Source of the DNA: a virus | DNA length: 29,154 nt | Virus record (IMG/VR): IMGVR_UViG_3300049846_000426 | Coordinates: 1-29,154 of that record | Strand: one strand, 5' to 3' | Shown here: piece after piece, positions 8,561 to 25,153 of the stretch | Numbering within the stretch: position 1 is the first letter of the stretch | Layout: the number at the start of each line of letters is the position of its first letter | The notes under the pieces: generated by a model | Told to the model about the DNA's origin: nothing | The model's input: the letters and a program-made list of their open reading frames with translations, nothing else | Databases searched by the model: none | Made by a program: the position numbers and the translations under genes

Positions 8561-8601
8561 GTGGAGACGGTGCCGCAGTCGGCGCCGTCGGGTCGATTTC
8601 A
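8561..8601 (-). promoter_or_regulatory. Recurrent promoter-like motif, copy 2
   Basis: TGAAATCGACCCG reads on the minus strand from 8601 to 8589 and overlaps the TGA stop of the tape measure. GCACCGT (8573-8567) lies at exactly the same offset as in copies 4, 7 and 8. There is no start codon at the 28-nt position (8560). The next gene begins at 8504 with its own CAGGAG ribosome site, which fits transcription starting near 8560 with a roughly 56-nt leader. Confidence 0.65.
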
Positions 8602-10479
8602 TCCCGCGCGCCGCCGCGCGAACGAGCGATCCACCCGAGCGATCGCGCGCTTGCCTTCGTAGGTCCCCATGACCGCAGTCACCTCGCGCGGGTCGTTCTG
8701 CACGATCACGTTGACGCGCGTCGGACCTGTGCCGCCGCCTGCCATGGTCCGCATCGCCTGGTTTGCGTCGCGTGCCCACTGCTGATCCGCGAGCCGCTGT
8801 TCGCCCGTGCGGACGTGCACGCTCTCGCCGTGCGAGACGCGGAACGCCGCGACGTGCGAGTCGACGCCGCCCCCGCCGCCCATGACCATGTCACCGCCGT
8901 GCGCGAAGCCGGGCAACTGCAGCGCTGACGAGTTAGCGACGTAGTCGAAGCCGTGGGCGCCGCCGGCGAGGCCGCCGAGGAACTGCCCGGCGACCGCGCC
9001 CGAGCCGCCGCCGCTAGCGAGCCTCATGATCGCCATCTTGATCGCGAGCCTCGTCAGGTCGCGGATCATCTGCTCGGTCATGTCGTGCCATGACTGCTTG
9101 CCATCGGCTGCAGCCTTGAGGAACGAGCCGCCGATCTCGCCGAGCCCCGCGGCCCAGGCTTCCTTCGTCTCCTGTGCGGCCTCCTTGGCCTTCTTGACGA
9201 GCTCGGCGTTAGCCTTGGCCTCTTCCTCTAGGCGCTTCTGGCGTGCCGCTGCGAGTCCTTCGAGCATCTGCTGATTGAGCTCGTCCGACCGTCGGCGGTT
9301 CTCGGCGAGCGCGTTGAACGCGTCGTCCGGCGCCGCCATCGTGCCGCCCGTGACGCTGTCGCCGCGATCGAGGTTGAAAGACATGTCGCCACGGACGCTG
9401 GCGTATCGGTCTGTGTCGATCTTCGCGTTGCGGAATGCAGCGAGCGCCTCTGCAGCTGACAGGGCCGCGTCCCGCTGGTCTCGTAGCGCTTTGGTGTCCT
9501 TCTCTGTCTCGACGCGCCACTCATCGGTGACTCCCGCGGCGTGCAGCGCGACGTCGGCGTAGCGCTTCGCTTCGTCGATGACGTCCGAGATGCCATCCGC
9601 CAGGCCCACGAATCCCTGACGCTGCTTGTCTGCCTCGAGTGCGCTCCAACGTCTTGTCAGGGCATCAACCTCGTTGGCGATTCGACTGATCGACTGTTCA
9701 AGTGTGCCGAACGGAGTGAGCAGATGGTCTAGACTGATCGGGCGCTCGATCGCGTCGGTGAGCTCGTGCCATGTCTGCGACCATGTCTTGGCTCGCTGTC
9801 CGAACTTCTGATCGATGCTGTCGGTGGCCGAGGTCATCGAGCGGACGAGTTTCTCGAAGCCGATCTGTCCCGAGATGGCCATGTCCAGAAGCTCGGACTT
9901 CGTCATGCCGAGCGATGAGGTCATCTGCTCGGTGAGATCGGGAAACTGCTTGAAGATGCCGCGGAGCGCTCGCGCGGGATCCTGCCCGGTCTCGAACGCG
10001 ACCGACAAACCCTGCATCGCTTGCGCTGCAGACTCCATCGAGGAGCCGCCCATCTGCGCGGCCTCGCCGAGTGTCTTGGTGAGTCGGATCTGCTCGGCGT
10101 GCGTCAGGTTGAGACCGTCGGTCGCATCGCGCACGGCATCGTATGCGCCGATCGTCTCGTTTGTCCCAGTCTTGAGCTCGTGCGCTAGGTCCCTCTGTTC
10201 TCGTAGGACGTCGTCGACCGTGCGGCCAGCATCGGCGAACTTCATCGCCGAGTTGCGGAGGTTCGTGTACTCGTCGTCGATCGCGGCGAGCTTACCGACG
10301 ACCGCTGCGCCGCCCGCGGCGACGAACATGCCGCCCATCGCCTTGCCCATGTCGAGCAGCGATTGCTTTGTCTTCTCACCCTTCTTCTCGAGCCCGTCGA
10401 GGGCCTTCTCGGCCTGCTTGCTGCCCGCGACGGCGCCCGTTGGATCGACCCTGACCTTGATGTCGAAGTTCTCGCTCAT
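8599..10479 (-). CDS. Tail tape measure protein
   Basis: The 626-aa protein sets tail length and guides tail-tube assembly. The N-terminus is charged and helical, followed by a hydrophobic Ala/Gly stretch (about residues 46-65). A tape-measure domain at about 65-250 includes SWHELTDAI-like repeats such as TWSQTWHELTDAIERPISLD. Long helices follow (about 250-470), then a second TWHDMTEQMI-like segment and a Gly-rich C-terminal region with LPGFAHGGDMVMGGGGG and HVRTGEQ, as in lambda-like tape measures. It starts with a strong GGAGG site and an ATGA overlap with the upstream chaperone frame. By the usual ~1.5 angstrom per residue rule the tail would be about 90-95 nm; this is an estimate. Confidence 0.93.
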   Translation of the reverse strand: MSENFDIKVRVDPTGAVAGSKQAEKALDGLEKKGEKTKQSLLDMGKAMGGMFVAAGGAAVVGKLAAIDDEYTNLRNSAMKFADAGRTVDDVLREQRDLAHELKTGTNETIGAYDAVRDATDGLNLTHAEQIRLTKTLGEAAQMGGSSMESAAQAMQGLSVAFETGQDPARALRGIFKQFPDLTEQMTSSLGMTKSELLDMAISGQIGFEKLVRSMTSATDSIDQKFGQRAKTWSQTWHELTDAIERPISLDHLLTPFGTLEQSISRIANEVDALTRRWSALEADKQRQGFVGLADGISDVIDEAKRYADVALHAAGVTDEWRVETEKDTKALRDQRDAALSAAEALAAFRNAKIDTDRYASVRGDMSFNLDRGDSVTGGTMAAPDDAFNALAENRRRSDELNQQMLEGLAAARQKRLEEEAKANAELVKKAKEAAQETKEAWAAGLGEIGGSFLKAAADGKQSWHDMTEQMIRDLTRLAIKMAIMRLASGGGSGAVAGQFLGGLAGGAHGFDYVANSSALQLPGFAHGGDMVMGGGGGVDSHVAAFRVSHGESVHVRTGEQRLADQQWARDANQAMRTMAGGGTGPTRVNVIVQNDPREVTAVMGTYEGKRAIARVDRSFARRRAG

Positions 10480-11266
10480 CGCTGCCTCCTCATTTCGTCG
10501 TTCTGTCGCTTGGTTCGGATCGCGTCGTTGTGCTCGATCGCCAGCGCGATCGCCTCCGTCGCCTCAACGCCGAGGCCCTTGTGCCTCGCGTAGCTCTCGA
10601 TCGCGGGCCACGGAATCGGCCCGTAGAACGGCACGAGAATCGGCGCGGACTTGGGCACAGCCATCGGGCGCAGCCCTGGAAGCCGCGCGGAGTCGAGCCG
10701 CTCCCATGCGTCGATGCAGATGGCCATCGCCGTATCGAGCGGTGGCTCTTGCGCCAGTATCGCGCGCTCCTGTGGCGTTAGCTTCGCGGCGGGCTTGCGC
10801 CGCGCGATCATCTGCTTAGCTGGCGCGGCGCGGCGATGCCAGTCCAGCCACGCCGCTACTCTTTTCCCAGGTCGACCGGCTCGCGAAAGCTGGCCGCCAT
10901 CTTGACGGTCATCCGCAGCGCGTTGATCTCCTCGTCGTATCCGTTCTCCAGCGCGAACTTCAGGAACGCGAGCGCCTTTTCCGGCGTGCATTCGACCGGC
11001 TTGCCGCCGTCGGTGACGTTCTCCCACGAGGCGACGCAGAACGCCGCAATGTCTGCGATGTCCTGCTCGAGCTCGTGCGCGAGCTGCTCGGAGCCCTTGC
11101 GCTCGACGAGGTCGGGCTTGCGCGTGAATGTCGCGTCAGCGTAGGCCGCGTTGCGTCGTCCGAGCTGGCGAACGTGCAGCGTGATCGGCTTGTCGGCGGA
11201 CGGCGACAGGCGATGGAACTTGAACTCGGTCGTGTCGGTGCGCTTGGCGCGGACGATGTCGAACAT
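10476..11266 (-). CDS. Tail assembly chaperone GT fusion made by -1 frameshift
   Basis: Reading the G frame from 11266 to the slippery site at 10868-10862, slipping back one nt, and continuing to the stop at 10476 gives a product of about 263 aa: 135 from G and 128 from the T frame (beginning RVAAWLDWHRR). The T frame has no convincing start of its own, and its upstream part antiparallel to G looks non-coding. This is the classic G/GT organisation just before the tape measure, whose ATG overlaps the T-frame stop (ATGA). The fusion is expected to hold the tape measure during tail assembly. The T part ends with a basic tail. Confidence 0.85.
10856..11266 (-). CDS. Tail assembly chaperone G (unshifted product)
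   Basis: This 136-aa protein is the normal zero-frame product and should be more abundant than the fusion. It is acidic and mainly helical from residue 50 on, with an N-terminal beta-rich part. Location directly between the tail tube and the tape measure, and the slippery heptamer three codons before its stop, identify it more firmly than similarity does. AGAGG precedes the ATG at 11266 at short spacing. A copy of the recurrent motif lies 86 nt upstream, leaving a leader with a tiny open frame. Confidence 0.85.
   Translation of the reverse strand: MFDIVRAKRTDTTEFKFHRLSPSADKPITLHVRQLGRRNAAYADATFTRKPDLVERKGSEQLAHELEQDIADIAAFCVASWENVTDGGKPVECTPEKALAFLKFALENGYDEEINALRMTVKMAASFREPVDLGKE
10862..10868 (-). 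other. Programmed -1 ribosomal frameshift site GGGAAAA
   Basis: On the minus strand the codons CTG GGA AAA GAG TAG contain the slippery heptamer G GGA AAA in the correct phase (X XXY YYZ). Slipping back one base allows re-pairing and opens the T frame, bypassing the TAG two codons later. This matches the known mechanism in lambda gpG/gpGT and many siphoviruses. Confidence 0.88.
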
Positions 11267-11324
11267 GGGGCCTCTGTGGTTAAGAGGCGGGCCGTGTTCG
11301 CATCGCGGCGAGCGGCGAGCCTTG

Positions 11325-11365
11325 CACCATGAGGATGCCGCCGCCGCCCACTCGGGTCGATTACA
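11325..11365 (-). promoter_or_regulatory. Recurrent promoter-like motif, copy 3
   Basis: TGTAATCGACCCG reads on the minus strand from 11365 to 11353, and its TAA is the stop of the tail-tube gene. The second block is weak. An ATG 22 nt downstream (11330) opens a 16-codon frame ending at 11280, before the chaperone ATG at 11266. It is inferred to drive the chaperone and tape-measure unit. Confidence 0.55.
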
Positions 11366-12899
11366 CGTCGGTCGGGATGTACCCGAACACCGCGAGCGCG
11401 CCCGCGATGCCGTCGGTTGCCGAGCGGAAGCCGACGATATCGCAATTGATCATCACGGGTTCGTTTGCGGCGTACGACAGGTCGGGGTTGCGCAGCGCCA
11501 CGTTCGGCATGTCTAGCAGCACGCCGTACTGGTGGTTCGCGATGAAGCAGTCCCACGCCATCCCGTCGCGGTTCGCGTCGGCTGCGTCGATGGCGTCCGA
11601 GTCCTGGTAGTACGCTTTCATGTTCACAGAAAACATGAATTTGCCGTAGTTTAGGCCAGACGCGCCGAACACGCCCTGGCTCTTGCGGGGCTTGATGTTG
11701 TTGTTCAGGTTGTAGGTCCAGTCGACGACGTCGGCGACGAGGCTGCCGCCGCTGTCGGTCAGGCGGACCTCGTACAGATCGTTCTGCGTGTCGAGCAGCG
11801 CATCGCCGAGCGGCGAGTAGGCCGAGCTCGGACCCGAGACGCGAGAGGCGACCGCCACCGGGAGTGTCGCGGTCATGCCGACGAGGCCGAGCGTCGCGGT
11901 GATCTTGCTGTCGATGGGCGCGGAGATCTGGAGCGTGTTCGCGCCGCATCCCTTCGTCATCGTGTAACGGGTGTCCGCCGAGACGCCCGGCTTGATGTCG
12001 GTCTTTTCGAAGGACATCGTATACTCGTTGTAAACCGCGTTATCGATCGGGTAGTTGCGGTAGAACCGCGACGACACGAACACGCGAACGGTCGACGTGG
12101 TTTCGGTCGTCGCCGCGCCGAGCGTCCAGGTGTGGCGCTCCAGCGTAAGTTGGTTCGTCGCGATCGCCGTGATGCGCGCGCGCCCGGTGTACGCCGAGTT
12201 AGAGAACGCGTAGAGCGCCGAGCCCATCGCGGTCGCCTGCGTCGCCGACGGCAGGTAGATCCACATGCCCACCACGAGCCCGAGCGTGGTGAAGTTCAGG
12301 GACGTCGAGGTCAGGTTCCCCGAGACGTCGAGCTCGAGGTCGCCCGCTGCGCCCTGGAAGCCGACGATGTCGAGCGTGGCGTTTGCTGGCGGGGTCTCGG
12401 CGACGAGCGTCGCCGTCGCGACCTTGATCGCCGTGCCCGTCGACGTCCCGGCCGTGACGAGTAGCGCATTGTTCGCGCTGTTCGTGAACCCGCGGCCCTT
12501 GATGAGCATGCCGTTTGGGATCGCGCCGAGCGACGCGACCGTATACGAGTCATTGGACCCGCCACCGTCGACAACCGCCGTCGGTCGGAACAGCGAGAGC
12601 CCGGTCCCGCCGATGTGCTTGGCCGTGCAGCGGAACGCCGGTGCGGCGATCGCGTCGACAAAGTCCTTGTTGAGGTCGTGCGTCAGGGACGGCGTGACCT
12701 CGTAGGCGACGTGGTCGCCCTTCTCCTGGGTCGCGTTTAGCGAGTGGATGTCGCGCTCGACGTCCGCGTACTTGCGTTCGAACCCCGACAGCCCGCCGAC
12801 GTCGACTTGCAGCTTGACCCAGCCGGACGAGGGCGCGGTGCCGCGCGTGGATTCTGTTGCTACGACGAGCTCTACGCCTTCGGCGATGTAGTCGGCCAT
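11361..12899 (-). CDS. Major tail tube protein (Phage_tube_2-like)
   Basis: This 512-aa protein should form the hexameric rings of the tail tube. The N-terminus (VELVVATESTRGT, then a block with HSLNATQEKGD) and the C-terminal stretch with a YNLNNNIKPRKSQG segment are typical of this tube-protein family, whose members are often around 300 residues. The excess length comes mainly from a Gly/Thr/Ala-rich region at about 110-290, which looks like an inserted beta-domain exposed on the tube surface. It starts exactly 28 nt after the palindromic copy of the recurrent motif, without a Shine-Dalgarno sequence, and ends in a TAA lying inside the next motif copy, so it appears to be transcribed as its own unit. 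Confidence 0.85.
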   Translation of the reverse strand: MADYIAEGVELVVATESTRGTAPSSGWVKLQVDVGGLSGFERKYADVERDIHSLNATQEKGDHVAYEVTPSLTHDLNKDFVDAIAAPAFRCTAKHIGGTGLSLFRPTAVVDGGGSNDSYTVASLGAIPNGMLIKGRGFTNSANNALLVTAGTSTGTAIKVATATLVAETPPANATLDIVGFQGAAGDLELDVSGNLTSTSLNFTTLGLVVGMWIYLPSATQATAMGSALYAFSNSAYTGRARITAIATNQLTLERHTWTLGAATTETTSTVRVFVSSRFYRNYPIDNAVYNEYTMSFEKTDIKPGVSADTRYTMTKGCGANTLQISAPIDSKITATLGLVGMTATLPVAVASRVSGPSSAYSPLGDALLDTQNDLYEVRLTDSGGSLVADVVDWTYNLNNNIKPRKSQGVFGASGLNYGKFMFSVNMKAYYQDSDAIDAADANRDGMAWDCFIANHQYGVLLDMPNVALRNPDLSYAANEPVMINCDIVGFRSATDGIAGALAVFGYIPTDV

Positions 12900-12973
12900 G
12901 CCGCCACGGTGCGGCGATGCGGCTGATCGGGTCGATTTCGACCCGAACGCCCCATCGGAGCGAGGCTCGCCGC
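12900..12973. promoter_or_regulatory. Bidirectional promoter-like palindrome, copy 4
   Basis: The 18-nt sequence CGGGTCGATTTCGACCCG at 12928-12945 has perfect 8-nt arms around TT. From each end of the palindrome the distance to the start codon is exactly 28 nt: to ATG 12899 on the minus strand and ATG 12974 on the plus strand. The minus side has the GCACCGT block (12912-12906); the plus side has a weaker equivalent. It is inferred to drive the divergent tail-tube gene and the + strand island. Operator function is the alternative. Confidence 0.7.
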
Positions 12974-13387
12974 ATGGCCAGCTTCGTCAAGTTCGAGTGT
13001 TTCTCCGAGAACCTTGCGGAGAAGGGGCACAACCTCGACACCGATACGCTCAAGGTGTTTCTCACCAACAGCACGCCGAACGTCGCGACGCACACCGTCA
13101 AGACCGACCTCACCGAGATCAGTGCGGGCAACGGATACACCGCTGGCGGCGAGGACACACTCAACGCTACGAGCCGCAGTGGCGGGACCACGAGCGTCAC
13201 GGGGACCGATGTGGTGTGGACGAGTTCGGGCGTGGGATTTGGCCCGTTCCGCTACGTCATTCTCTACAACAGCACGCACGCGAGCAATGCACTGATCGGC
13301 TACTGGGACTACGGCTCGAGCATCACGCCCGCCAACGGCGAGACGTTCACGGCAGACTTCGGGGCTAGCCTCTTCACGGTGGCGTAG
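12974..13387 (+). CDS. Small virion-associated protein, first gene of + strand island
   Basis: The 137-aa protein resembles a widespread but functionally uncharacterised phage protein: it starts with a FVKFECFSENLAEKGHNL stretch, then has LKVFLTNSTP, AGNGYTAGG, GFGPFRYVILYN and a C-terminal block containing YWDYGSSITPANGETF. It looks like an all-beta fold. It begins exactly 28 nt after the palindromic motif, with only a weak GAGG upstream. The next gene starts three nt after its stop. Its location among beta-rich genes suggests a virion surface or adsorption role, which is inference. Confidence 0.7.
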   Translation: MASFVKFECFSENLAEKGHNLDTDTLKVFLTNSTPNVATHTVKTDLTEISAGNGYTAGGEDTLNATSRSGGTTSVTGTDVVWTSSGVGFGPFRYVILYNSTHASNALIGYWDYGSSITPANGETFTADFGASLFTVA

Positions 13388-13390
13388 CCC

Positions 13391-14686
13391 ATGGCTGACA
13401 ACGTCGACATCACCGCTGGCACCGGCACGACGATCGCCACCGACGATTGCACGACCGGACACGTGCAGCTCGTCAAGCTCGCCTATGGCGCCGACGGCAA
13501 CCGCACGCAGGTAGCCGCAGACGCAGACGGCTTGCTCGTCAACCTCGGCACGAACAACGATGTCACGGTGACTGGCACGGTTACCGCGAACCTAGCAGCG
13601 GGCACCAACAACATCGGCGACGTCGATGTGTTGTCCGTGCCTGCGCCGCTCTCGACGACGGGCAACGGTACCGCCGCGACCGCGTTGCGTGTCTCGCTCG
13701 CCAATGACTCGACGGGCATCGTAGCACTCACCACGAGCAGTGCCGCGATCGGCAAGCTCGCCGCGAACGATGGCGTGGACGTCGGCGACGTCACGATCAA
13801 CAACGCATCGGGCGGATCTGCCGTCAACATCCAGGACGGTGGCAACTCGATCACGGTCGATGGAACCGTCGCTGTCTCGAATACAATCCTTGCCGCTGCC
13901 GGCTCGACATCGATCGCGAAAGCCGAGGACGTGCTCTCGGCCGATGGCGACGTCGGCGTGCCTGCGCTTGCGGTCCGCAAAGCGACGCCCGCCAATACAT
14001 CGGGCACGGACGGAGACTACGAGTTCTTGCAGATGTCGGCGGGCCGGCTCTGGACGAGCGCCACGATCGATGCGGCGCTACCCGCAGGAACGAACGCGAT
14101 CGGCAAGCTCGCTGCAAATAGCGGTGTGGATATCGGCGACGTCGATGTCCTCACAATGCCGAACGTCACGCTGGCCGCTACCACGAACACGATCGAGGTT
14201 GTAGGCGACATCGCGCACGATACCGGCGTCGGCGGAAACCCCGTGCAGGTCGCGGGTGCGGCGTGTGCCCTTGCGGACTCTGCACCGGGCAACCGCGTAT
14301 CGGCTGCCGCAGACGTGACACGGCTGGCCACGTCGCTGGACGGTGGCGTGTTCGTGCATCCGCACGGGCCGCAGATGTGGAGCACGCTAAACACGGGCTC
14401 GCTGTCGGGCACCAGCGTAAAGGCAGCCGGCGCGGCTGGCTTGTCGCACTACATCACGGCACTCCAGTTTTCGATCGGCGCGGCGACGGCGAGTAGCATC
14501 AAGCTCACGATCAGCGGTGGCGCGGACATCTGGGGACCGCACTACCTCGAGGCGGTGAACGGACGCGGCGTCAACATCGCGTTCAATCCGCCGCTGAAGG
14601 TCACTGCGGCAACCGCATTCACGGCAACGACGACAGGATCGACGACCTGCACGCTCACCACGCAGGGCTACACGGCGCCGGGGTGA
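13391..14686 (+). CDS. Beta-repeat structural protein (IGDVDVL repeats)
   Basis: The 431-aa protein is Ala/Thr/Gly-rich with short internal repeats such as NNIGDVDVLSVP, AIGKLAANDGVDVGDV and AIGKLAANSGVDIGDVDVLTMP, consistent with stacked beta strands. The last 110 residues differ and may form a separate domain (HGPQMWSTLNTG onward). No enzymatic motif is visible. Proteins of this type are common in phage virion gene clusters, but their function is not established. It follows the first island gene by three nt and is followed by the next with a three-nt gap, so all are probably one mRNA. Confidence 0.65.
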   Translation: MADNVDITAGTGTTIATDDCTTGHVQLVKLAYGADGNRTQVAADADGLLVNLGTNNDVTVTGTVTANLAAGTNNIGDVDVLSVPAPLSTTGNGTAATALRVSLANDSTGIVALTTSSAAIGKLAANDGVDVGDVTINNASGGSAVNIQDGGNSITVDGTVAVSNTILAAAGSTSIAKAEDVLSADGDVGVPALAVRKATPANTSGTDGDYEFLQMSAGRLWTSATIDAALPAGTNAIGKLAANSGVDIGDVDVLTMPNVTLAATTNTIEVVGDIAHDTGVGGNPVQVAGAACALADSAPGNRVSAAADVTRLATSLDGGVFVHPHGPQMWSTLNTGSLSGTSVKAAGAAGLSHYITALQFSIGAATASSIKLTISGGADIWGPHYLEAVNGRGVNIAFNPPLKVTAATAFTATTTGSTTCTLTTQGYTAPG

Positions 14687-14689
14687 TCC

Positions 14690-15436
14690 GTGGCGACCAT
14701 CAACAATCGCGGCACGGGCACGCACAACACGGCGGCAACGTCATTCACGCTCACCCCAGGCAGCAACTGCACGGCGCTGGCCAAGATCGTGCTCTGCGTC
14801 GCTGCCGACAACTCGTCCTCCGGTGGCGCGACGAACGACTTCACCACGGTCACCGACACGCTTGGCAACACCTGGATCAAGCGACAGTCGCCCGTATTCG
14901 ACAACGGAGCGGCAAGTGCCGGTGTGCAGGGCGCGATCTACGAGACCGATCAGACCGCAGGGACGCTTCAGACCACGACCACCATCACGGTCAACTTCGG
15001 AAGCTCGCCGACCGCGAAAACATGGACGCTCACCGAGATCGCGCCGGACGCGGGCAAGGTCATCACGCACGCAACCGGCGGCGACAAGGCAACCGGAGCA
15101 ACGGCCACTGCGGCAACCTCGGGCGCGTCCGGCACGATCTCCGTGGGTCAGATCAGCGTGTTCGCCATCTACATCGAGGCAGGCACCACGCAGACCTGCA
15201 CTGGCGACAGCGACACGACGAACGGCACATGGTCGACGCTGCAGTACACCGAGATCGGATCGACGACGAGCGGATCGTGTATCGCCAGCCAGGCCAAGAT
15301 CCAGACCACCGCCAACAGCACTCAGACGTACGATGTCACGCTGGGTATCTCGAGCGACTACCACTCGAGCTGGACGGTCTACAACGAGGTTCCTTCGAAC
15401 TCCTGCGGCTGCGGTGGCTCGATGGGTTGGTGGTAG
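14690..15436 (+). CDS. Beta-rich structural protein ending in a Gly/Cys/Trp tail
   Basis: The 248-aa product starts at a GTG three nt after the previous stop. It is rich in Thr, Ser and Ala, with a predicted all-beta body (TATLG-like repeats absent) and paired cysteines. The end is unusual: SNSCGCGGSMGWW, a short Gly/Cys/Trp tail. Related phage proteins begin with a similar NNRGTGTHNTAATSFTL stretch, but no function is known to me. The island context suggests a virion decoration or host-contact role. The strongly beta composition and the absence of a signal peptide argue against a secreted enzyme. Confidence 0.6.
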   Translation: MATINNRGTGTHNTAATSFTLTPGSNCTALAKIVLCVAADNSSSGGATNDFTTVTDTLGNTWIKRQSPVFDNGAASAGVQGAIYETDQTAGTLQTTTTITVNFGSSPTAKTWTLTEIAPDAGKVITHATGGDKATGATATAATSGASGTISVGQISVFAIYIEAGTTQTCTGDSDTTNGTWSTLQYTEIGSTTSGSCIASQAKIQTTANSTQTYDVTLGISSDYHSSWTVYNEVPSNSCGCGGSMGWW

Positions 15437-15439
15437 CCC

Positions 15440-16144
15440 GTGCTGCTAACCCTCCTCAAAGCGACCGCGAGCAACAACCGGACGCTCGCGTGCGACGCGG
15501 GATCGTTTGCGGTTACGGGCACTGCCGCAACGCTGAAGTACGGCCGACTTATCGTGTCGTCCGCCGGAGCCGTCGTGGTCACCGGCACCGACGCCGTCCC
15601 CAAGCTGGGTCGACTCGTCGTCGCCGCCGCCGGATCTGCGTCCATCGCGGGAACGGTCGCGTCGCTTCTCTACGGCCGGCGGATGGCCGCCGCTGCGGGC
15701 AGCGTCGATGCCTCCGGGACGGCTGCGGGCGTCCTGTACGGTCGCCTCGTATCGGCGAGCTCCGGCGCGTTCTCGATCACCGGCACGAATGCGACGCTGA
15801 CCTACGGAAACGGAAGCTACACGCTCGCATGCGACGAGGGCGCGTTCTCGATCACCGGCACGAGCGCCAGCCTGTTGTTCGGTCGCGTGGTGTCCGCGAG
15901 CGGAGGCGCGATCGCGATCGACGGCACCGCCGCCACGCTGATCGGCAATCGCATTGTCTCGGCGTCCTCGGGAACGTTCGCAGTCACGGGCACTGCGGCA
16001 ACGCTTACCTATGGCGCGATCGTCGTGCTGACCGCGACGCTCCATGACCCCGCGCGACTCGTTGCCGTGCTCGCCGGGAATGAGCGACAAGCATCGATCA
16101 CCGCCGTCCCGCGCCTTACCGCCACACTGCAAGGAGCTTCGTAA
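15440..16144 (+). CDS. Tandem-repeat protein, eight ~22-residue units
   Basis: The 234-aa protein is built from about eight units with consensus G-[AS]-F-x-[IV]-T-G-T-x-A-x-L-x-Y-G-R-x-V-x-A-x-S, covering about residues 20-200, followed by a 30-residue non-repetitive tail. Repeats of this kind occur in phage structural proteins and suggest an elongated beta fold, perhaps a surface fibre or repeat-adapted adhesin. It starts at a GTG three nt after the upstream stop and ends in TAATG, overlapping the start of the next gene. Copy number could vary by recombination, since some units are near-identical at DNA level. Confidence 0.65.
   Translation: MLLTLLKATASNNRTLACDAGSFAVTGTAATLKYGRLIVSSAGAVVVTGTDAVPKLGRLVVAAAGSASIAGTVASLLYGRRMAAAAGSVDASGTAAGVLYGRLVSASSGAFSITGTNATLTYGNGSYTLACDEGAFSITGTSASLLFGRVVSASGGAIAIDGTAATLIGNRIVSASSGTFAVTGTAATLTYGAIVVLTATLHDPARLVAVLAGNERQASITAVPRLTATLQGAS
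15500..16030 (+). repeat. Diverged ~66-75-nt tandem repeats inside the repeat protein
   Basis: Successive units encode the 22-25-residue repeats. The best-preserved pair shares an identical 25-nt stretch starting at 15764 and again at 15839, exactly 75 nt apart. The first and last units also resemble each other (15508-15542 and 15978-16012). Most other units have diverged in DNA but kept the protein pattern. Confidence 0.7.
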
Positions 16145-16461
16145 TGCTTGACGTTATCCACAAAGGCATCGACTGGCGGCAGACGCTGACGGTGGTAGAC
16201 GCGGCGGGCGACGCCGAGGACCTTACCGGGCTAACCATCGTGCTCGAGCTTCGCCGCCACACGCCAGACGCGAACATCCTGACGCTCACCGTCGGCGACG
16301 GCATCACGCTCCAAGCGCAGAGCGGCGCCACGCTGGGACTCGCAGACGTGCAGCTCGACGCGGCCGACTCGGTCGCGCTTGAGTCTGCGAATCACGTGAT
16401 GCGCGTGCTTATCGACGCTCAAGTCGCTATGGACTGGGTCAAGGTGACGGTGAGGGACTAG
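16144..16461 (+). CDS. Small beta-domain protein, last gene of + strand island
   Basis: The 105-aa protein contains KGIDWRQTLTVVDAAGD, DLTGLTIVLELRRH and MDWVKVTVRD, a pattern like the N-terminal beta-domain of baseplate or fibre-attachment proteins in which DLTG-A/L marks a strand. This suggests an anchor or adaptor for the neighbouring repeat proteins, which is inference. The ATG overlaps the TAA of the repeat gene. Its own TAG overlaps the stop of the convergent tail-terminator gene by two nt. Confidence 0.6.
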   Translation: MLDVIHKGIDWRQTLTVVDAAGDAEDLTGLTIVLELRRHTPDANILTLTVGDGITLQAQSGATLGLADVQLDAADSVALESANHVMRVLIDAQVAMDWVKVTVRD

Positions 16462-16898
16462 CGCGTGTCGACGTACCGGAACCGCACGACCACGACGCGA
16501 CGCGACCATGCGCCATCATCGGGCACCTCCTCGGTGCGGCCCTCGTAGAGGTTCAGGTTCTCCAGTCGATGACCCTCGAGCGCGGTGCGCACGTCGTCGG
16601 ATAGCTCGGCGAGCGTTGCAGCGCCCTGGTTGATCGGAGCGAACAGCTGGACGAACACGTTCCCGCGTCGCTCCCATTTCCGATACGGCGCGGAACCTTG
16701 GGTGAGTTGCGACGCCGACGTGTGAATGATCGACACGCGCGCCCATGCGCCAAGGTCGCCGAGTTGGTCTGTCGAAAACGACTCGTTGGTGTACGTGTAC
16801 GGAACGCAGTCGGGATCGTCCGTGTCCTGCGGGTGCAGTGCATCCCAGCCGGTTTCCCACTGCCCGAGAATCGCCTGGATCGCTTCGAGCTCGGTCAC
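16458..16898 (-). CDS. Tail terminator protein (DUF4128-like)
   Basis: The 146-aa protein should cap the tail tube and join it to the head, like lambda gpU. Evidence is the family pattern: PYTYTNESF near residue 33, WARVSIIHTSASQLTQGS, RKWERRGNVFVQLFAPINQG, and a C-terminal VVVRFRYVDTR. It begins with a GTG 29 nt after a copy of the recurrent motif and lacks an obvious Shine-Dalgarno sequence. It appears to be a one-gene unit: the motif precedes it, and its stop meets the stop of the convergent + strand island head-on. Confidence 0.8.
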   Translation of the reverse strand: MTELEAIQAILGQWETGWDALHPQDTDDPDCVPYTYTNESFSTDQLGDLGAWARVSIIHTSASQLTQGSAPYRKWERRGNVFVQLFAPINQGAATLAELSDDVRTALEGHRLENLNLYEGRTEEVPDDGAWSRRVVVVRFRYVDTR

Positions 16899-16940
16899 GA
16901 CTCGGAGCGTGCAATCCCCAAGGCCCTAGGGTCGATTACG
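16899..16940 (-). promoter_or_regulatory. Recurrent promoter-like motif, copy 5
   Basis: CGTAATCGACCCT reads on the minus strand from 16940 to 16928 and contains the TAA stop of the 47-aa gene. The GTG of the tail terminator lies 29 nt further on. GCACGCT is found at the offset where other copies have GCACCGT. Confidence 0.6.
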
Positions 16941-17778: not shown

Positions 17779-18774
17779 TTACGCCACCGCAGACGGGATG
17801 TAGACGCCAGCGTCAGCCGCGATGAGCTTGTGCGTGAATGCCGACTGGATTTCGACCATGTCGGACTCGCGCGACTCGTCGCGGTAGGTCTTGATGCGCC
17901 AGCCCATCGGGTTGCCGATGTAGCGAGACCACGTGAAGGTCTTGACGCCGGTCACCGACTCGATGCCGGGTGCGTTGTTGCGGTACAGAAGGACGGCCTT
18001 CTTGCCGGCGATGTACGCGGCGGACGCCGTGGCGCCTTCCGTTGCGGTGTTTTCGACCGCGCCCATCACGACGATCTCCTCGAGGCCAAGGAGGGCCGCG
18101 ACCATCTGCGGGGTCACCTTGGCCATCGAGCCTTGGAGCTGGCCGCCGTACTTCAGGCGGTCGATCAGGTCGGGATGGTCGGCGAGCTTGTCCCACACTT
18201 GCTGGCCGAGGCCGAGCACGTTCGGGCGGGCCGCGCCCATCGTGAGGAGCTCGATCTCAGTGCACCATCCGCGGATGTCCTCGATGGGTGTCGAGGCCGC
18301 GTCGTTCCACTGCAGGAACTGGTTCGTGGACACGCCCGAGGCGACGCCGGTCTTCGTGGTGGTCCACGTTCCCGAGCTCATCGCCGCCGTGACGAACGCC
18401 TTCTCGCGCTTGATGCGCTCCATCAGAACCAGGAACTGCATCGCGTTGCGGTCGCTGTTCAGCGGGGCGTCCTCGTTGGCGCGAACCTGATCTGCGATCG
18501 GCTTCTTGAGCGCGTAGGGGATGCACGTGAACGACGTCGACGAATCGACACCGTAGCCCGCTTCGGCCGCCGCCGTACCGGGTCCGCGCTCCTTCATGGA
18601 ATCGCGGCCCCAGTAGTCCTTGGTGAACTTGAAGAGCACGTTGCTTTGCTTGTCACTGGGATGGATCGGCGCGAGCTTGTCCGCCCCGAACTTGTCCAGC
18701 GACTGCGCGTACTGGACAGACAGATCGGTCAGCGGCGCATTGACGTGAACGTCGCCCTGGGTCGGAAGAGACAT
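17779..18774 (-). CDS. Major capsid protein
   Basis: The 331-aa protein is assigned as the shell protein by length, composition and position after the scaffold and DUF2190-like genes. The sequence contains the beginning typical of such proteins (SVQYAQSLDKFGADKLAP), an IADQVRANEDAP extended segment, a long helix with RIKREKAFVTAAM (spine-helix-like), and a C-terminal YIGNPMGWRIKTYRDE-type strand. An HK97-like fold is expected from family knowledge, not shown directly. ATAGGAGC precedes the ATG. A separate protease/scaffold gene upstream indicates that the capsid matures with a distinct scaffold. Confidence 0.88.
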   Translation of the reverse strand: MSLPTQGDVHVNAPLTDLSVQYAQSLDKFGADKLAPIHPSDKQSNVLFKFTKDYWGRDSMKERGPGTAAAEAGYGVDSSTSFTCIPYALKKPIADQVRANEDAPLNSDRNAMQFLVLMERIKREKAFVTAAMSSGTWTTTKTGVASGVSTNQFLQWNDAASTPIEDIRGWCTEIELLTMGAARPNVLGLGQQVWDKLADHPDLIDRLKYGGQLQGSMAKVTPQMVAALLGLEEIVVMGAVENTATEGATASAAYIAGKKAVLLYRNNAPGIESVTGVKTFTWSRYIGNPMGWRIKTYRDESRESDMVEIQSAFTHKLIAADAGVYIPSAVA

Positions 18775-19219: not shown

Positions 19220-19825
19220 TTACTTGCGCTTGTTGATCGCTGCGTAGAGTTCGATGCCGCGCTTGGTCGCAAGGACCATGTCCGCAGCCTTGAAACGGTC
19301 GACCTTGTGATCTGCCATCGCCTTGGTAACGGCGGCGTCGTACTCGGCCTGGGGGTTCTCGATGACCGGGTCCGCGCCGGGGTTCACGCCCTTGGCGGTA
19401 CCGGCTGCGACCATCGCAGCGTTCGCCGCCTTGAGCGCCTCGATCGCGCCCGTGCGCTTCGCCTCGTCCGAGATCGACTCAGCCGCCTTGAGCAACTCGA
19501 CGTGAACCTCGTCCGTTCCGGCGAGTGCGCCGAGCATGTCGGCCGCGCGCTTCTTGAGCTCGACGAGCTCGCGCGAGGCGACCTCGGCCTTGGCGATCTT
19601 CATGGCATCGTCCGCGCGCTTGGCCATGTCGGCGAGCGCCTGGCCCTGGCTCTTGCGGATGATCGTGCCGTCGTCGCACTTGTACAGCTCGACGTCGAGC
19701 GCCGCAGCCTTGGACACGTCGGCATCGCGATCGACCGACGACTTCGCGAGGAACGCCTCGGCGTCATCGCTCGAGAGCTTCGAGTAGTGCGCGTGCTGCG
19801 CTTCGGTGAGGACGACGATCTTCAT
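19220..19825 (-). CDS. Internal, separately translated scaffold protein (nested)
   Basis: An in-frame ATG at 19825 is preceded by AAGGTGA at good ribosome-site spacing and lies exactly 28 nt after a copy of the recurrent motif. The product (201 aa, MKIVVLTEAQHAHYSKLS...) is highly charged, Ala-rich and helical (KRADDAMKIAKAEVASRELVELKK), typical of scaffolds, and ends with LYAAINKRK. This matches the known lambda C/Nu3 layout, where the scaffold is the C-terminal part of the protease made from an internal start. That it is actually made is inferred. Confidence 0.7.
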   Translation of the reverse strand: MKIVVLTEAQHAHYSKLSSDDAEAFLAKSSVDRDADVSKAAALDVELYKCDDGTIIRKSQGQALADMAKRADDAMKIAKAEVASRELVELKKRAADMLGALAGTDEVHVELLKAAESISDEAKRTGAIEALKAANAAMVAAGTAKGVNPGADPVIENPQAEYDAAVTKAMADHKVDRFKAADMVLATKRGIELYAAINKRK

Positions 19826-20356
19826 AGCGTCACCTTGATTGGTAGTTGTGGGGCGGGTCGATTTCGCTGCAGCGGCGCCGACGTCCTCGACGCGCTCGCC
19901 CATGCCCTGGATTGAAACGGCGGTGTATTCGCCGCTTTTGAACTTCGCGAGCACGTCCGCGCTTGGCTTGAGCGCGATCATCAGGCCGGTCGTCTGCGTC
20001 TCGACGCCGAACGCCTTCGCGATCTCAGGCGTCATCGGCATCGCGAACACGACGCGACCATCCGGCTCGCCGTCGTGCATCTCGTCGGTCGGGCCGCCGT
20101 TCTCCATGAACTCGGCAGCCGCAGCGACGAAGTCCTCGTCGATGTTGTCGCCGTGGAGGTCGTAGTAGTCGGCGCCCTCGCTCTTTGACGTGAACGCCCA
20201 GCAGAACACCAGGCCGAGCTCGTCGGCGACCTTGACGACGTTCGCGACGCCTTCCGCCTTTCGCTTGATAAGGACGACCTTCGCCGTTTCCTGCGCCGGG
20301 GCGTCAACGGGCGAGATGAAGTCCAAGCGCTTGAGCTTGAGTTTGTATCGACTCAC
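19220..20356 (-). CDS. XkdF-like prohead protease fused in frame to scaffold
   Basis: The 378-aa product has an XkdF-like domain at about residues 5-160: KRLDFISPVDAPAQ, then GLVFCWAFTSKSEGADYYDLHGD, EMHDGEPDGRVVFAMP, and FKSGEYTAVSIQG. This family is linked to prohead serine protease function in Mu/PBSX-type phages, though I cannot point to the catalytic triad. An Ala/Lys-rich helical scaffold domain follows (about 178-378). The GTG at 20356 overlaps the previous stop as GTGA, giving a better start than the ATG-like site at 20551. The scaffold half is also likely made alone from an internal start at 19825. Confidence 0.78.
   Translation of the reverse strand: MSRYKLKLKRLDFISPVDAPAQETAKVVLIKRKAEGVANVVKVADELGLVFCWAFTSKSEGADYYDLHGDNIDEDFVAAAAEFMENGGPTDEMHDGEPDGRVVFAMPMTPEIAKAFGVETQTTGLMIALKPSADVLAKFKSGEYTAVSIQGMGERVEDVGAAAAKSTRPTTTNQGDAMKIVVLTEAQHAHYSKLSSDDAEAFLAKSSVDRDADVSKAAALDVELYKCDDGTIIRKSQGQALADMAKRADDAMKIAKAEVASRELVELKKRAADMLGALAGTDEVHVELLKAAESISDEAKRTGAIEALKAANAAMVAAGTAKGVNPGADPVIENPQAEYDAAVTKAMADHKVDRFKAADMVLATKRGIELYAAINKRK
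19826..19866 (-). promoter_or_regulatory. Recurrent promoter-like motif, copy 6 (inside the protease gene)
   Basis: CGAAATCGACCCG reads on the minus strand from 19866 to 19854, in frame through codons AKSTRP of the protease-scaffold fusion. It lies exactly 28 nt before the internal scaffold ATG. Its location at the junction between the two protein domains supports function beyond coding. Confidence 0.65.
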
Positions 20357-21056: not shown

Positions 21057-21097
21057 GCCGCGACGGTGCGCCCGTCATGGCATGCGGGTCGATTTCG
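21057..21097 (-). promoter_or_regulatory. Recurrent promoter-like motif, copy 7
   Basis: CGAAATCGACCCG reads on the minus strand from 21097 to 21085, directly after the TAG of the upstream gene. GCACCGT (21069-21063) lies at the shared offset, and the ATG at 21056 follows 28 nt after the first block. From GCACCGT to the ATG it differs from copy 4 at one base only. Confidence 0.7.
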
Positions 21098-21388: not shown

Positions 21389-21392
21389 TTTA

Positions 21393-22793
21393 TCAGAAGG
21401 GTGGGTCATCGTCGTCGGGTTTCGCTTGCTCGTACTCGGCGCGGTATTGGGCGTAGTACTTTCGCTGCTGCTCGTCTGCCCACTCTTCGCCGATCTTCGC
21501 GTCGAGTTCGGCGCGAACATGGAACCGATCGCCCTCGTTGCCGAATGCGGTCTCACCGCCTGACCCGTACTTCTCCATGAACGCTTGCGACAGGTCGGAC
21601 GCAGCATTGATCCGGTCCTTGTTTCCTCGGATCCGGCCGGCCTCCTGCCGCATGAACTTGTGGCCTTCTTTATCCCAGATTCGCGCGAGGTCTGGCGAGA
21701 GGTTGCTACGTGCTGCCGAGTGAATCTCGCGCCGACGCTCGGCCGATGCCGCCGCCGCCACCCGCGCCGCGGCCTGCCGCCGTGGGTTCTTGGCTGGCTT
21801 GCTCGAGGTCGACTCGCCTGGAGCGTCCTCGGCGTCTACCCTGGCGCCGTTCATCGTCGTCGCGACCGTGCATCGGCAATTGGCGTCATGCGCCGCGCCG
21901 CCCTTGCCGTCCCCTGGCCACATCTTGCGCGTGCCGTCTGGGAACACGAACGGCTCGCTTAGTTTGACCTCGGTCCCGTTCATCGCGTGATGGTCGGGGC
22001 GTGCGTCCTTGGTGCGCGGGCCCGAGATCCATTCCTTGACGAGTTGGCCTGCCTCGACGTCGCCGCGCTCGATCGCTTGCTGGAAGGAGTCGTCGATCCC
22101 GGCGTGGACGTTCCGCGCCGACTCGGTGCGCGCGATGACCTCGGCCCGATGCTGAATGTATGCCTTGCGATACTTCTCGGTCATCGTGTCGATCTGCTGC
22201 TCGGTGAGCGATCCGCCCTCGCGACCGAGTCGACGTAGCCGCGAGTTGGCGCGGTCGTCGTGCAACTGACGCCCCATCGCGTTGCCATAGTCCCCACGCT
22301 CGAGCGCGCGCCGGTAGTTGCGCACGTGCTGCTCTTGGTTCGGCGTAAGCCCGATGGAGTCGCGAATGTCGCGCGCGATCGTGCGGGGGTTGAGGCCCTG
22401 CCGCTGGCCGTCGGTGATGACGTTGCGCAAGATCTCGCGGGTCTCGGTCTGTAGGCCCTGGACGAGCTCGAGTTGGTTGGTCTGCGCACGCTTGACCGCG
22501 GCGTGATTGGTCACGTCGAACCGAATCAGCTTGTCGGCCACCTGACCGTCGAGCCACTTCGCCGCCTCGCGTCCTGCCTGGACGTAGGCCGAGTTCGTCT
22601 CGGCCGCGAACCTCAGTGCCGCAGACTCGACCTCGGCAATCACGCCAGCGGTGTCGCCTGCGTAGAGTCTAGCCTCGATCGCCGATGCGGAGTTGGCTGG
22701 AAGGTTGCGCAGCCATTCGACCGCGCCAATCCACTCGCCGCCGAGATGTTTCTCGACGAGCGCGAGGAGCTTTTGCATGTCGCGTTCGCTCAT
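21393..22793 (-). CDS. Minor head protein, phage Mu gpF-like, with C-terminal extension
   Basis: The 466-aa product contains the Mu-F domain at about residues 215-312: IARTESARNVHAG, then GPRTKDARPDHHAMNG, FPDGTRKMWPGDG and DANCRCTV, whose His/Cys residues are characteristic. Such proteins are minor head components next to the portal, involved in head assembly or in DNA ejection. The N-terminal 210 residues are helical. Residues about 335-466 form an extra charged domain with no family I recognise. ATGA overlap with the upstream neck gene shows coupling. Confidence 0.88.
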   Translation of the reverse strand: MSERDMQKLLALVEKHLGGEWIGAVEWLRNLPANSASAIEARLYAGDTAGVIAEVESAALRFAAETNSAYVQAGREAAKWLDGQVADKLIRFDVTNHAAVKRAQTNQLELVQGLQTETREILRNVITDGQRQGLNPRTIARDIRDSIGLTPNQEQHVRNYRRALERGDYGNAMGRQLHDDRANSRLRRLGREGGSLTEQQIDTMTEKYRKAYIQHRAEVIARTESARNVHAGIDDSFQQAIERGDVEAGQLVKEWISGPRTKDARPDHHAMNGTEVKLSEPFVFPDGTRKMWPGDGKGGAAHDANCRCTVATTMNGARVDAEDAPGESTSSKPAKNPRRQAAARVAAAASAERRREIHSAARSNLSPDLARIWDKEGHKFMRQEAGRIRGNKDRINAASDLSQAFMEKYGSGGETAFGNEGDRFHVRAELDAKIGEEWADEQQRKYYAQYRAEYEQAKPDDDDPPF

Positions 22794-23149
22794 CTACGAC
22801 AGAGACACGTCCAGATCGCGACGGTCCCCTCCACGGCGGTCACCTTCAGGGTTTGCGAGTCGATCGTGATGGTGTCGGTCGCCTTCGGCTTCACGGCACC
22901 AAGGCCGATCAGGCACACGACCTTGTCGCCGCGCTCGACGATGGTCCCGTCGATGCTCTCGAAGCTCTCGCTCGAGACAAACCCCTTGCACGAGTAGCTT
23001 GTGGTCGTCGGGTTGGTTCCCTCGGCCAGCGCACCAGGCGTGCGGGTGCCTGGAGTCGAGCGCGTGAGGGTTGCCGACTCGGTGACTCCAGCCGACGGTA
23101 GCGCGTTGCCCAGGATGCTGGCGATCTTCGTGATGAGCGGCGTGGTCAT
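22790..23149 (-). CDS. Head-tail joining / neck protein
   Basis: The 119-aa product is beta-rich after a short helical start (LITKIASILGNALPSAG), with YSCKGFVSS, TIVERGDKVVCLIG and a TITIDSQTLKVTAVEG strand pair, a layout seen in small head-closure or joining proteins such as those annotated as head-tail adaptors. It overlaps both neighbours with ATGA, between the connector and the Mu-F-like protein. The assignment rests on context and length. Confidence 0.62.
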   Translation of the reverse strand: MTTPLITKIASILGNALPSAGVTESATLTRSTPGTRTPGALAEGTNPTTTSYSCKGFVSSESFESIDGTIVERGDKVVCLIGLGAVKPKATDTITIDSQTLKVTAVEGTVAIWTCLCRR

Positions 23150-23673
23150 TGCCCACCGTTCATGTCGTAGTCCTCGCAGTCATCGGCTGGGCTGGTCTCG
23201 GAGCCTGTCGAGCCGTACGCCGTGACCGTCGTCGCGCCCTGCGCCGCCGCGAGGTAAGAGCCCACGAGCCGCTGAACAGCGACGGGTAGCTTTGTCGCGC
23301 CGCGGCCTGCCGAGGTCGGCGCGAAGTAGGTGACGCTCGCGCCGCCAGCGCCGACGCTTTGAATGTTCGAGCCCGCGTCGAGGTTGCTGACGATGGAAGG
23401 ATCCGACGCGATGAGCACGGCGAGCTCGTATTGCGCCGTCGCGAACGCTGCGATCAGATCGCGCTCGGCGAACGTGTCCGCTGACGATATCCATGACTGT
23501 GCGTTGAGGTAGCGCACGGCCGCCGCCAATGTGCGCTTGCGGTTGTCGGCGCTGAGCGCGGTCCATGTGTCCGCCGCGGTCCCATACATCATGGCGACGT
23601 AGGTGATCGACGCAGCGTAGGTGCCGTGAATGGTCTCGGTCGCGCCGCCGGTCAGGGTGATCGTATCACTCAC
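23146..23673 (-). CDS. Head-tail connector / adaptor protein (gp6-like)
   Basis: The 175-aa protein has the helical core typical of connector adaptors next to the portal: a stretch with SADNRKRTLAAAVRYLNAQ, then AERDLIAAFATAQYELAVLI, and later ATKLPVAVQRLVGSYL. It would form a ring beneath the portal and close the head. The GTG at 23673 overlaps the portal TGA (GTGA) and has GAGGAGG upstream; a longer in-frame extension antiparallel to the portal gene is not supported. Confidence 0.78.
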   Translation of the reverse strand: MSDTITLTGGATETIHGTYAASITYVAMMYGTAADTWTALSADNRKRTLAAAVRYLNAQSWISSADTFAERDLIAAFATAQYELAVLIASDPSIVSNLDAGSNIQSVGAGGASVTYFAPTSAGRGATKLPVAVQRLVGSYLAAAQGATTVTAYGSTGSETSPADDCEDYDMNGGQ

Positions 23674-25112
23674 GGTGCCTCCTCTTCGGGTGCGTCCTCT
23701 TTGCCATCGGCGCCGGTCTCGTCCTCGCCCTCTGGATCGTCCTCGGGCTCGGGCGCCGGGATGCGCGGGGCCATGAGCTCGGCCATCGGCTCGGGCCGTG
23801 GTGGCAACCGCATCCGCTTGCGCATCACATCCCAGGCCGGATCGTCGGGGGCGAGCCCGGCCATGGTGAGCTGCGAGAGCGCCTGGGTCACCGTCAAGAT
23901 CGCGTCCGTCGACACTGGCTCGGCGACAATGCGCGGCGTGCACGTGTCGGGGTCGAGGCCGTTGCGAGCGATGAGCCTACGCGCGAGCTGATGCGTCGCG
24001 AACCAGGCTAGCTCGGTGAGCGTGGTCTCGACCGTGGTCTCGAACGTCGTGGTTTTGTCCTCGTGCATCGAGTACGACCCGCCGCCATCGCCGCCCATGA
24101 TCGCGAACTCGATCCCCAGCACGCGGGCGATCTGGAGCTCGACGCGGCGCATGGTCTCGTGCGCTTGCGCCATGTTCGCGGTCTCGGTCTTGATCAGATC
24201 GAACGTCCACTTGGGGCGCCCGGTGTGGGTGCCATCGGGGTTGGTGTAGTCGGCCGAGTCCTGCATCAGCCACTGGGCAGTCTCGGGCGACTTGTTCCGC
24301 TTGTTCATGAAGTCGCGGATCACTTCGGTGGCCGCGTCGAGGGCCGTCGTAATCGTCGACGCGTCCTCGGAACCTGTCGCCGCGGCGAGCTCGCCGAGCG
24401 GAGCCGTCGAATAGGGGACGCCGCCGAGGTCCTCGGAGAACGCCTTGAGTTCCCAGGACTCGAACAGGTCGAGCCGCCGCACGTACTCGATCACATGGCG
24501 CAACAGGCCCACGCCCTCGGGATGGTCCGTGAACGTGTCATCGACGCAGTAGAAGCACTCGTCGAGCGGGATCGGGATCTCTTGGCCTGTCTGCCGGGCT
24601 CGCTGGATGGCGGTATCGAACGGCGAGAACTCATCCTTGCGCTTCCACTGCTCGATCGTGAACTGCGGGCGATGCTCAATCGCCGAGTACACGATCAGCC
24701 CGTCGGGGCGACGGCGCATCGCGGTAGCGTGCAGCGAGAACCCCAGCGGCTTGTACATCGCCGCCTTGCGCACGACGGAGGCCCAGGGCTTTTGCATCGG
24801 AGCGTTGAGAAGGCCGCACTCGACGATCTCCATGGCGCGGCGTGCGTCGCGTGCGCTGCATTCGGTGGGCTCCTCGGCATGCCACTCGGTCCCCGCTAGC
24901 AGGTTGACGAAGTAGCGGATGCCCGTCGCAATGATCGGCTTGTTCGTCGCGTTCGCGAACGTCGTCCACTTCTGGGATCCGGTGAGCGCGGAGTTGGACT
25001 CGTTCGAGGATACGTAGCCCGAGAACGCGGTCACACCCGTCGAGCCCGGAGGCCGCGCTGCCTTGCGTGCAGCCGTGTTGCCCTTCTCGAACTGGCCGCG
25101 CGTGTTTCTCAC
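23670..25112 (-). CDS. Portal protein (DUF935 / Mu gp29-like)
   Basis: The 480-aa protein should form the dodecameric portal. Evidence: position right after the large terminase, length, an N-terminal stretch with KPIIATGIRYFVNLLAGTEW, a middle DHPEGVGLLRHVIEYVRR, and the GIEFAIMGGDGGGSYSMHEDK segment followed by a long helix, as in DUF935-type portals. The C-terminal 50 residues are Pro/Glu/Asp-rich and probably disordered. Start is GTG at 25112, exactly 28 nt after the recurrent motif and without a Shine-Dalgarno sequence. Confidence 0.85.
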   Translation of the reverse strand: MRNTRGQFEKGNTAARKAARPPGSTGVTAFSGYVSSNESNSALTGSQKWTTFANATNKPIIATGIRYFVNLLAGTEWHAEEPTECSARDARRAMEIVECGLLNAPMQKPWASVVRKAAMYKPLGFSLHATAMRRRPDGLIVYSAIEHRPQFTIEQWKRKDEFSPFDTAIQRARQTGQEIPIPLDECFYCVDDTFTDHPEGVGLLRHVIEYVRRLDLFESWELKAFSEDLGGVPYSTAPLGELAAATGSEDASTITTALDAATEVIRDFMNKRNKSPETAQWLMQDSADYTNPDGTHTGRPKWTFDLIKTETANMAQAHETMRRVELQIARVLGIEFAIMGGDGGGSYSMHEDKTTTFETTVETTLTELAWFATHQLARRLIARNGLDPDTCTPRIVAEPVSTDAILTVTQALSQLTMAGLAPDDPAWDVMRKRMRLPPRPEPMAELMAPRIPAPEPEDDPEGEDETGADGKEDAPEEEAP

Positions 25113-25153
25113 ACGCGAACGGTGCGCGAACGGAGCCGAACGGGTCGAATACG
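25113..25153 (-). promoter_or_regulatory. Recurrent promoter-like motif, copy 8
   Basis: CGTATTCGACCCG reads on the minus strand from 25153 to 25141, just after the terminase stop. GCACCGT (25125-25119) lies at the shared offset and the portal GTG (25112) follows 28 nt after the first block. It separates packaging from head genes. Confidence 0.7.

Follow-up and report, generated by a model that had tools for sequence, protein, structure and literature searches.

A predicted late-type promoter family, with most mRNAs starting on the start codon, before the virion genes of an uncultured phage group

The virion-gene locus and its repeated element

The IMG/VR virus record IMGVR_UViG_3300049846_000426 (positions 1 to 29,154; 29,154 bases; contig G000), hereafter referred to as the window, is a fragment with virion genes that comes from an uncultured tailed phage with a probably temperate lifestyle. 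Its virion genes are encoded on the minus strand, and a five-gene operon on the plus strand (12974-16461) is embedded among them (Table 1). Nine copies of an element of about 40 bases, eight on the minus strand and one divergent on the plus strand, are found in the window and follow the pattern GWAA-TCGACCC-G-N15/16-[CG]A[CG][CG]NT-N6-RTG (W: A or T; R: A or G; N: any base). With good confidence, these copies are predicted from sequence to belong to a late-type promoter family that is specific to an uncultured phage group and of which most mRNAs start on the start codon.

The element combines a box, TCGACCC, with a second block downstream of it. An earlier note on this DNA had described the second block as GCACCGT at an identical offset in four copies and had interpreted both blocks as a -35/-10-like pair. 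The four minus-strand copies (8573-8567, 12912-12906, 21069-21063 and 25125-25119) are located correctly and lie exactly 16 nucleotides (nt) past TCGACCC (15 past TCGACCCG), and the fifth copy carries GCACGCT instead, at 16912-16906, as had been described. In the copy with its box at 19861, GCACCGT is replaced by TCAAGGT and the offset of the ATG is unchanged. GCACCGT alone is not enriched in the window, with seven occurrences found and eight expected; four of these seven are located exactly 16 nt past a TCGACCC, and its presence at one offset in four of eight boxes has a probability near 1e-14 (from base composition, by hand arithmetic). The gap of six nt that had been given between the second block and the start codon holds for the starts at 12899, 21056 and 25112 and is 7 nt at 16898. 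The copy at 8596 was said to have no start codon at this place, and indeed its gene begins at 8504, 56 nt past the predicted transcription start (+1). The spacing of about 16 nt is right from block to block; counted from TCGACC to the -10 hexamer, the spacer measures 18 nt.

The boxes at 12935 (minus strand) and 12938 (plus strand) stand back to back (GGGTCGAAATCGACCC) and face diverging genes, the plus-strand ones forming the embedded operon. A Pfam search of the five operon genes gave no match. A similarly reversed cassette was observed at the equivalent place in the related contig G015 (25149-28685) and seemingly also in L064 and L165. The other plus-strand open reading frames (ORFs) of the window were mostly discarded on codon score, and the operon was kept.

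Table 1. Element copies (P1-P9) and genes of the window, with counterparts of the elements in related contigs (L and G labels) and the sites of a different box in contig G001; aa, amino acids; SD, Shine-Dalgarno
Feature	Position	Strand	Details	Counterparts
P1, before portal gene	25113..25152	-	box TCGACCC 25148-25142; -10 CACCGT 25124-25119; predicted +1 = GTG 25112	before portal genes of L006, L042, L219, G015, G016, L255
P2, before 139-aa gene preceding head protease	21057..21096	-	box 21092-21086; -10 CACCGT; predicted +1 = ATG 21056	G015 20163, G016 7508, L006 4288, L042 7272, L227 3100, L239 1165
P3, within protease-scaffold ORF	19826..19865	-	box 19861-19855; -10 CAAGGT; in-frame internal ATG 19825	same internal place: G015 20979, G016 8384, L039 2599, L042 8532, L219 7017, L221 2365, L227 4026, L255 3728
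P4, before tail-terminator-like gene	16899..16939	-	box 16935-16929; -10 CACGCT; GTG 16898 at usual place +1 nt	L064 5419, L038 3305, L138 8495 region
P5, before major tail tube gene	12900..12939	-	box 12935-12929; -10 CACCGT; predicted +1 = ATG 12899	L064 2466, L039 6675, L038 2827, L138 8076, L165 3220, G015 28782, L224 2565
P6, divergent, heads plus-strand operon	12934..12973	+	box 12938-12944; -10 GAGGCT (CGAGGCT); predicted +1 = ATG 12974	divergent pairs at equivalent locus: L064 (2490+/2466-), L165, G015 (28752-/28782+), L168 contig
P7, before tail-chaperone region	11326..11364	-	box 11360-11354; -10 CATCCT; spacer one shorter; gene start ATG 11266, leader ~58 nt	L038 1175, L039 8341, L064 692, G015 31341, G016 14879, L224 4111
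P8, after tape-measure gene	8561..8600	-	box 8596-8590; -10 CACCGT; predicted +1 = 8560; gene start ATG 8504 with AGGAG (leadered case)	
P9, after last long tail gene	335..372	-	box 368-362; -10 GACCAT; spacer one shorter; ATG 334	G015 43547, G016 26719
Terminase	25155-26525	-		
Portal protein, downstream of P1	23670-25112	-		
Head morphogenesis	21393-22793	-		
Head maturation protease (PF14550)	19220-20356	-	in-frame internal scaffold-like start 19825	
Gene at capsid position	17779-18774	-		
Tail-terminator-like gene	16458-16898	-		
P6-driven operon	12974-13387, 13391-14686, 14690-15436, 15440-16144, 16144-16461	+	codon-score gene calls	
Major tail tube protein, downstream of P5	11361-12899	-		
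Tape measure	8599-10479	-		
Remaining tail genes	extending to 380	-		
Different box, contig G001 (L240-L242)	13632, 17288, 22892, 27683, 29789, 38671		mostly GCAAGGATC, sometimes palindrome GCAAGGATCCTTGC; ~30 nt upstream of [CG]ANNNT before virion genes	

Conservation in related phages and geometry of the second block

Homology searches with terminase, tail tube, head and portal proteins, together with pattern searches, yielded 13 further contigs with the box, so that the element is known in 56 copies from 14 contigs, window included. One of the pattern searches, for the box alone with an ATG at fixed distance, listed mostly chance matches, yet it supplied L064 and L138. Among the relatives are G016 (30.5 kb) and G015 (55.6 kb), the latter encoding an integrase, a VapE-like primase-helicase and an amidase, which indicates a temperate phage. 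Although proteins of the window are mostly 30-65% identical to those of G015 and G016 and divergence extends to the spacers, the element precedes equivalent genes. In 13 searched records, 31 occurrences of the pattern with A at -11 and T at -7 were counted, against none of the reversed control pattern. When the whole viral collection was scanned for the motif alone (GAAATCGACCC-N18-ANNNT-N6-RTG), 20 stretches were obtained, of which 12 are in the phage group and one of these, L255, was new. L255 encodes relatives of the terminase, portal, head morphogenesis, protease and capsid-position proteins (28-48% identity to the window) and has elements before the portal gene, before the protease gene and within the latter. 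The other eight stretches contain no second full element and look like chance. As a side observation, an element in G015 (L233 4596-4760) precedes a ResIII-type helicase gene, and the ATG behind it does not lead into a good coding frame; the start of this gene may be elsewhere, or the contig may contain a frameshift.

For blind column statistics, every match to A[AT]TCGACCC in the 14 contigs was taken and nothing else was considered (n = 56). Outside the box, conservation is strong only for G/W/A/A directly before it, G directly after it, A at offset 25 (47/56), T at offset 29 (43/56) and the start codon at offsets 36-38, and the spacer shows nothing comparable. The A and T columns are four positions apart and the hexamer begins 18 nt past TCGACC, so that they correspond to the bases -11A and -7T in a -10 element of the sigma type. 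With the hexamer at offset 23 or 24 the A/T pair is found in 52 of the copies, and the consensus after hexamer alignment (n = 52) is [CG]A[CG][CG]NT. Position -12 has C or G in 47/52 copies and T in only three, so that the -12T of TANNNT-type elements is nearly absent, -1 is C in 32/52 and +1 is A or G in 42/52. Neither the TG extension of an extended -10 (T at -15 in 4/52) nor a strong TAtaaT of the T4 type was found among the aligned copies. The box itself is located at about -40 to -29. Thus, the second block is kept across relatives as [CG]A[CG][CG]NT and not in the letters GCACCGT; as a fixed block GCACCGT was ruled out, as relatives keep only A and T. Given the spacing of A and T, it is best described as the commonest form, in the window, of a loose -10 element. 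At genes of the same phages that have no box, no enrichment of NANNNT was detected at this place.

Predicted leaderless mRNAs of the virion genes

The proposal that the block pair would place +1 on the start codon is supported by the 56 boxes, with A at offset 25, T at offset 29 and the coding start at offset 36. A coding start exactly at offset 36 is found in 29 of the 56 copies (0.4 expected) and within offsets 33-40 in 43 copies, and the distance from -7T to the start is 7 nt in 30/40. Leaders predicted in this way have zero or few nt at most genes, in agreement with the earlier note, for which long leaders would have spoken against leaderless mRNAs.

Three tests of LEADERLESSNESS favour leaderless mRNAs. 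First, where the -10 element is one base nearer to the box, the start codon is also one base nearer (medians 35 and 36, P = 3e-5); as the start moves with the -10 element when the spacer is shorter, it follows the -10 element and not the box. Second, the absence of SD sites, which had been noticed in the window, largely extends to the relatives: an SD site of at least four bases precedes only five of the 43 near-start genes of the 14 contigs, compared to nine of the 11 leadered genes, among them the window's gene at 8504 with AGGAG (P = 1.7e-5). Third, the 43 near starts comprise 30 ATG and 13 GTG and no TTG codon. In mycobacteria it was shown that RTG is functional at the 5' end and that TTG and CTG are not (PMC4633059), and the RTG-only near starts match this requirement.

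Very probably, the two blocks thus make up a late promoter of the phage, with the first as its upstream box and the second as its -10 element. The pair is repeated before most virion transcription units and would give rise to mostly leaderless mRNAs; the promoter interpretation and its geometry are strongly supported by the sequence. RNA polymerase would open the DNA at [CG]A[CG][CG]NT (-12 to -7, with A-11 and T-7 kept) and RNA would begin 7 nt past the -7 T, as a rule with the first base (A or G) of the RTG start codon. Most mRNAs formed from the element would then be leaderless and would be translated without an SD site, while genes that start further downstream, as at 8504 and at the scaffold starts of several relatives, would have a leadered mRNA that usually carries an SD site. 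The sequence itself shows the element with its spacing, its conservation at orthologous genes, the coupling between start codon and -10 element and the split in SD sites; from these we infer its role as a promoter, +1 on the start codon, expression late in infection and, with odds somewhat better than even, a dedicated factor.

The internal start in the protease gene (19220-20356) possesses its own promoter element, and this arrangement is conserved in eight relatives. The in-frame internal start begins with MKIVVLTE in the window (ATG 19825) and with MKIVILSE in G016. A scaffold protein is probably made separately from it, presumably comparable to the scaffold start of the lambda C/Nu3 kind.

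Which factor reads the box, and competing explanations

We lean toward GWAATCGACCC being read by a phage-encoded DNA-binding factor and not by a host sigma factor alone, in analogy to MotA at T4 middle promoters. L005, with a terminase segment 75% identical to that of the window, contains no TCGACCC element. Six intergenic sites of its contig, among them those at portal, protease and tail tube, instead carry AAGGATC, which is in most cases part of GCAAGGATC. At each site a [CG]ANNNT hexamer follows 29-31 nt downstream (hand count from printed sequences), so that this different box is further up. In a blind count of 7-mers upstream of genes the TCGACCC and the L005 boxes were each recovered in their own phage. 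The swapped box over an unchanged -10 element, together with the scarcity of -12T, argues for a phage-specific activator rather than for host sigma alone. As best candidate, on weak evidence, a 127-aa helix-turn-helix (HTH)-like protein can be named that heads the early operon in G015, where it is encoded at L233 3751-4134, and in the L005 contig (31% identity). A wider scenario, to which we give a little under an even chance, is a virion regulon dedicated to leaderless mRNAs, in which a phage factor would bring the host polymerase to a box specific to the lineage, above a weak -10 element that host sigma alone would largely ignore; relatives would have swapped the box and kept the layout, and the internal promoter of the protease gene would make the scaffold protein.

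Several points weigh against the promoter interpretation with its dedicated factor. No match to sigma region 2 (PF04542) was found in the window, G015 or G016, of which the window and G016 are fragments, and a phage-encoded sigma factor was dropped as a candidate. The regulator candidates are restricted to a Cro/CI-like HTH protein, encoded at L233 2491-2715, and the 127-aa protein, both with weak scores. MotA/AsiA relatives were absent among the proteins scanned, which included part of the G015 proteins. The A/T pair is missing at the expected offsets in four copies (G016 4135, G016 8384, L006 665 and L219 2787). As the 56 copies are related by descent, the P values overstate their independence, the gene calls of the contigs come from a simple codon-score script, and the 5' ends on RTG codons are predicted.

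It is possible, though less probable, that the same promoter with the same leaderless mRNAs is used by a primary or alternative host sigma factor alone, with TCGACC as a GC-rich form of TTGACA and no phage factor involved. TCGACC shares four of its six bases with TTGACA, 18 (or 17) nt lie between the hexamers, A-11 and T-7 are kept, and the failure to find a phage sigma factor in the three contigs mentioned would suit this explanation. Against this explanation, the conserved box of 11-12 bases (GWAATCGACCCG) exceeds a -35 element, and a related phage has GCAAGGATC in its place, further upstream. Leaderless genes in Actinobacteria and Deinococcus-Thermus have a -10-like TANNNT at a distance of about 12 bp before the start (PMC3160421, PMC12340547), and most leaderless promoters of Deinococcus have no classical -35 (PMC12340547). 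The phage element resembles these genes in the kept A-11/T-7, the hexamer about 6 nt before RTG, the missing SD site and the high GC content; in contrast, it is nearly devoid of the -12T usual in host leaderless promoters, is always accompanied by a long upstream box at fixed distance and serves a virion regulon. Extracytoplasmic function (ECF) and sigma-28 type promoters do not fit in spacing and letters.

The host itself bears on this question. The contigs L224 and L239 of the phage group are both contained in the Gemmatimonadota metagenome-assembled genome (MAG) G020, in which binning errors are possible. In the complete Gemmatimonadota genome G043 (L264, L275-L294) TANNNT with its T at -7/-8 from starts is enriched (12 seen, three expected) and SD sites are few (41 of 217 genes with an upstream gap). 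The enrichment points to leaderless host genes of the same geometry, so that the format exists in one candidate host phylum, and together with the two contigs in G020 it makes Gemmatimonadota a plausible but unproven host phylum. The full element was found in one of 298 Gemmatimonadota genomes, about as expected by chance and with no good sign of a nearby phage gene, and was rejected as a Gemmatimonadota host promoter. As further host clues, tRNA genes were sought and none were found, and the closest cultured relatives have a terminase identity of only about 41%.

It is improbable that the boxes are instead operators (or stoperators) of a phage repressor that silence the virion genes of the prophage, with ordinary promoters underneath. 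The group is temperate, with an integrase and a Cro/CI-type HTH protein in G015, and a box overlapping the -35 region would suit an operator. Against this, the box is asymmetric, strictly faces the gene and keeps a fixed spacing to the -10 element, which would be unnecessary for a repressor site, and the alignment shows no further -35-like column that is conserved. Both functions are compatible and can hold together. More doubtful still is a translation signal acting at the RNA level within a longer transcript, like the start-associated sequences (SAS) of cluster K mycobacteriophages. The element adjoins start codons and recurs through the genome, and as in SAS a short conserved asymmetric sequence is repeated beside start codons in one phage group. 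SAS include an AGGAG, are placed 3-7 bp from the start and occur mainly on non-structural genes (PMC3203893). In contrast, the phage element spans about -40 to -7, lacks an SD sequence and is found on virion genes; a cluster K GGGATAGGAGCCC with an SD core 3-7 bp from the start does not occur in it. Moreover, its spacing is kept to the A/T pair of the -10 element and not to the start alone, genes with distant starts retain the box and mostly gain an SD site, and no excess of RNA structure was found (mean z -0.16). A chance origin, or a side effect of the codon usage of GC-rich genes, could be suspected as GCACCGT alone is no commoner than expected, and it is practically eliminated by the position statistics, the reversed-pattern control, the conservation at orthologous genes and the motif-only recovery of L255.

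Known phage systems also bear comparison with the proposed promoter. At T4 middle promoters, which serve middle genes, a MotA box lies 12 bp from a sigma-70 -10 element, for which an excellent TAtaaT is needed (PMC2988021). What the phage element would share with them is a putative box of the phage's own near the -35 region, paired with a -10 element of the host type and repeated before many genes; it differs in its degenerate -10 element, in a box that is further up and in genes that are mostly virion genes. The middle and late transcripts of the Thermus phage P23-45 are leaderless. Its middle and late promoters are of the extended -10 type, and the host polymerase is redirected from -10/-35 promoters (PMC7403470). 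Phage middle/late promoters with a redirected host polymerase, a feature of P23-45, would be a common trait, whereas the phage element lacks the TG extension and has kept an upstream box.

Leaderless mRNAs are usually treated as a feature of host genes or as single phage cases, for example lambda cI. In this phage group, an entire virion regulon appears to rely on leaderless mRNAs, with an exact rule relating box, -10 element and start codon across phages of only 30-60% protein identity. This geometric rule allows one to ask why a virus would do without ribosome-binding sites in the genes whose products it makes most abundantly, with independence from 30S initiation or timing as possible reasons. 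Furthermore, the box can serve as a sequence tag to trace the phage factor and to connect uncultured phages with one another. In the unrelated phage L029 (179-6680, plus strand) about seven repeats of a unit CAATATCGGC...GCGAATAACCTATTGATGACACAACC were observed upstream of leadered genes, which looks like another repeated promoter.

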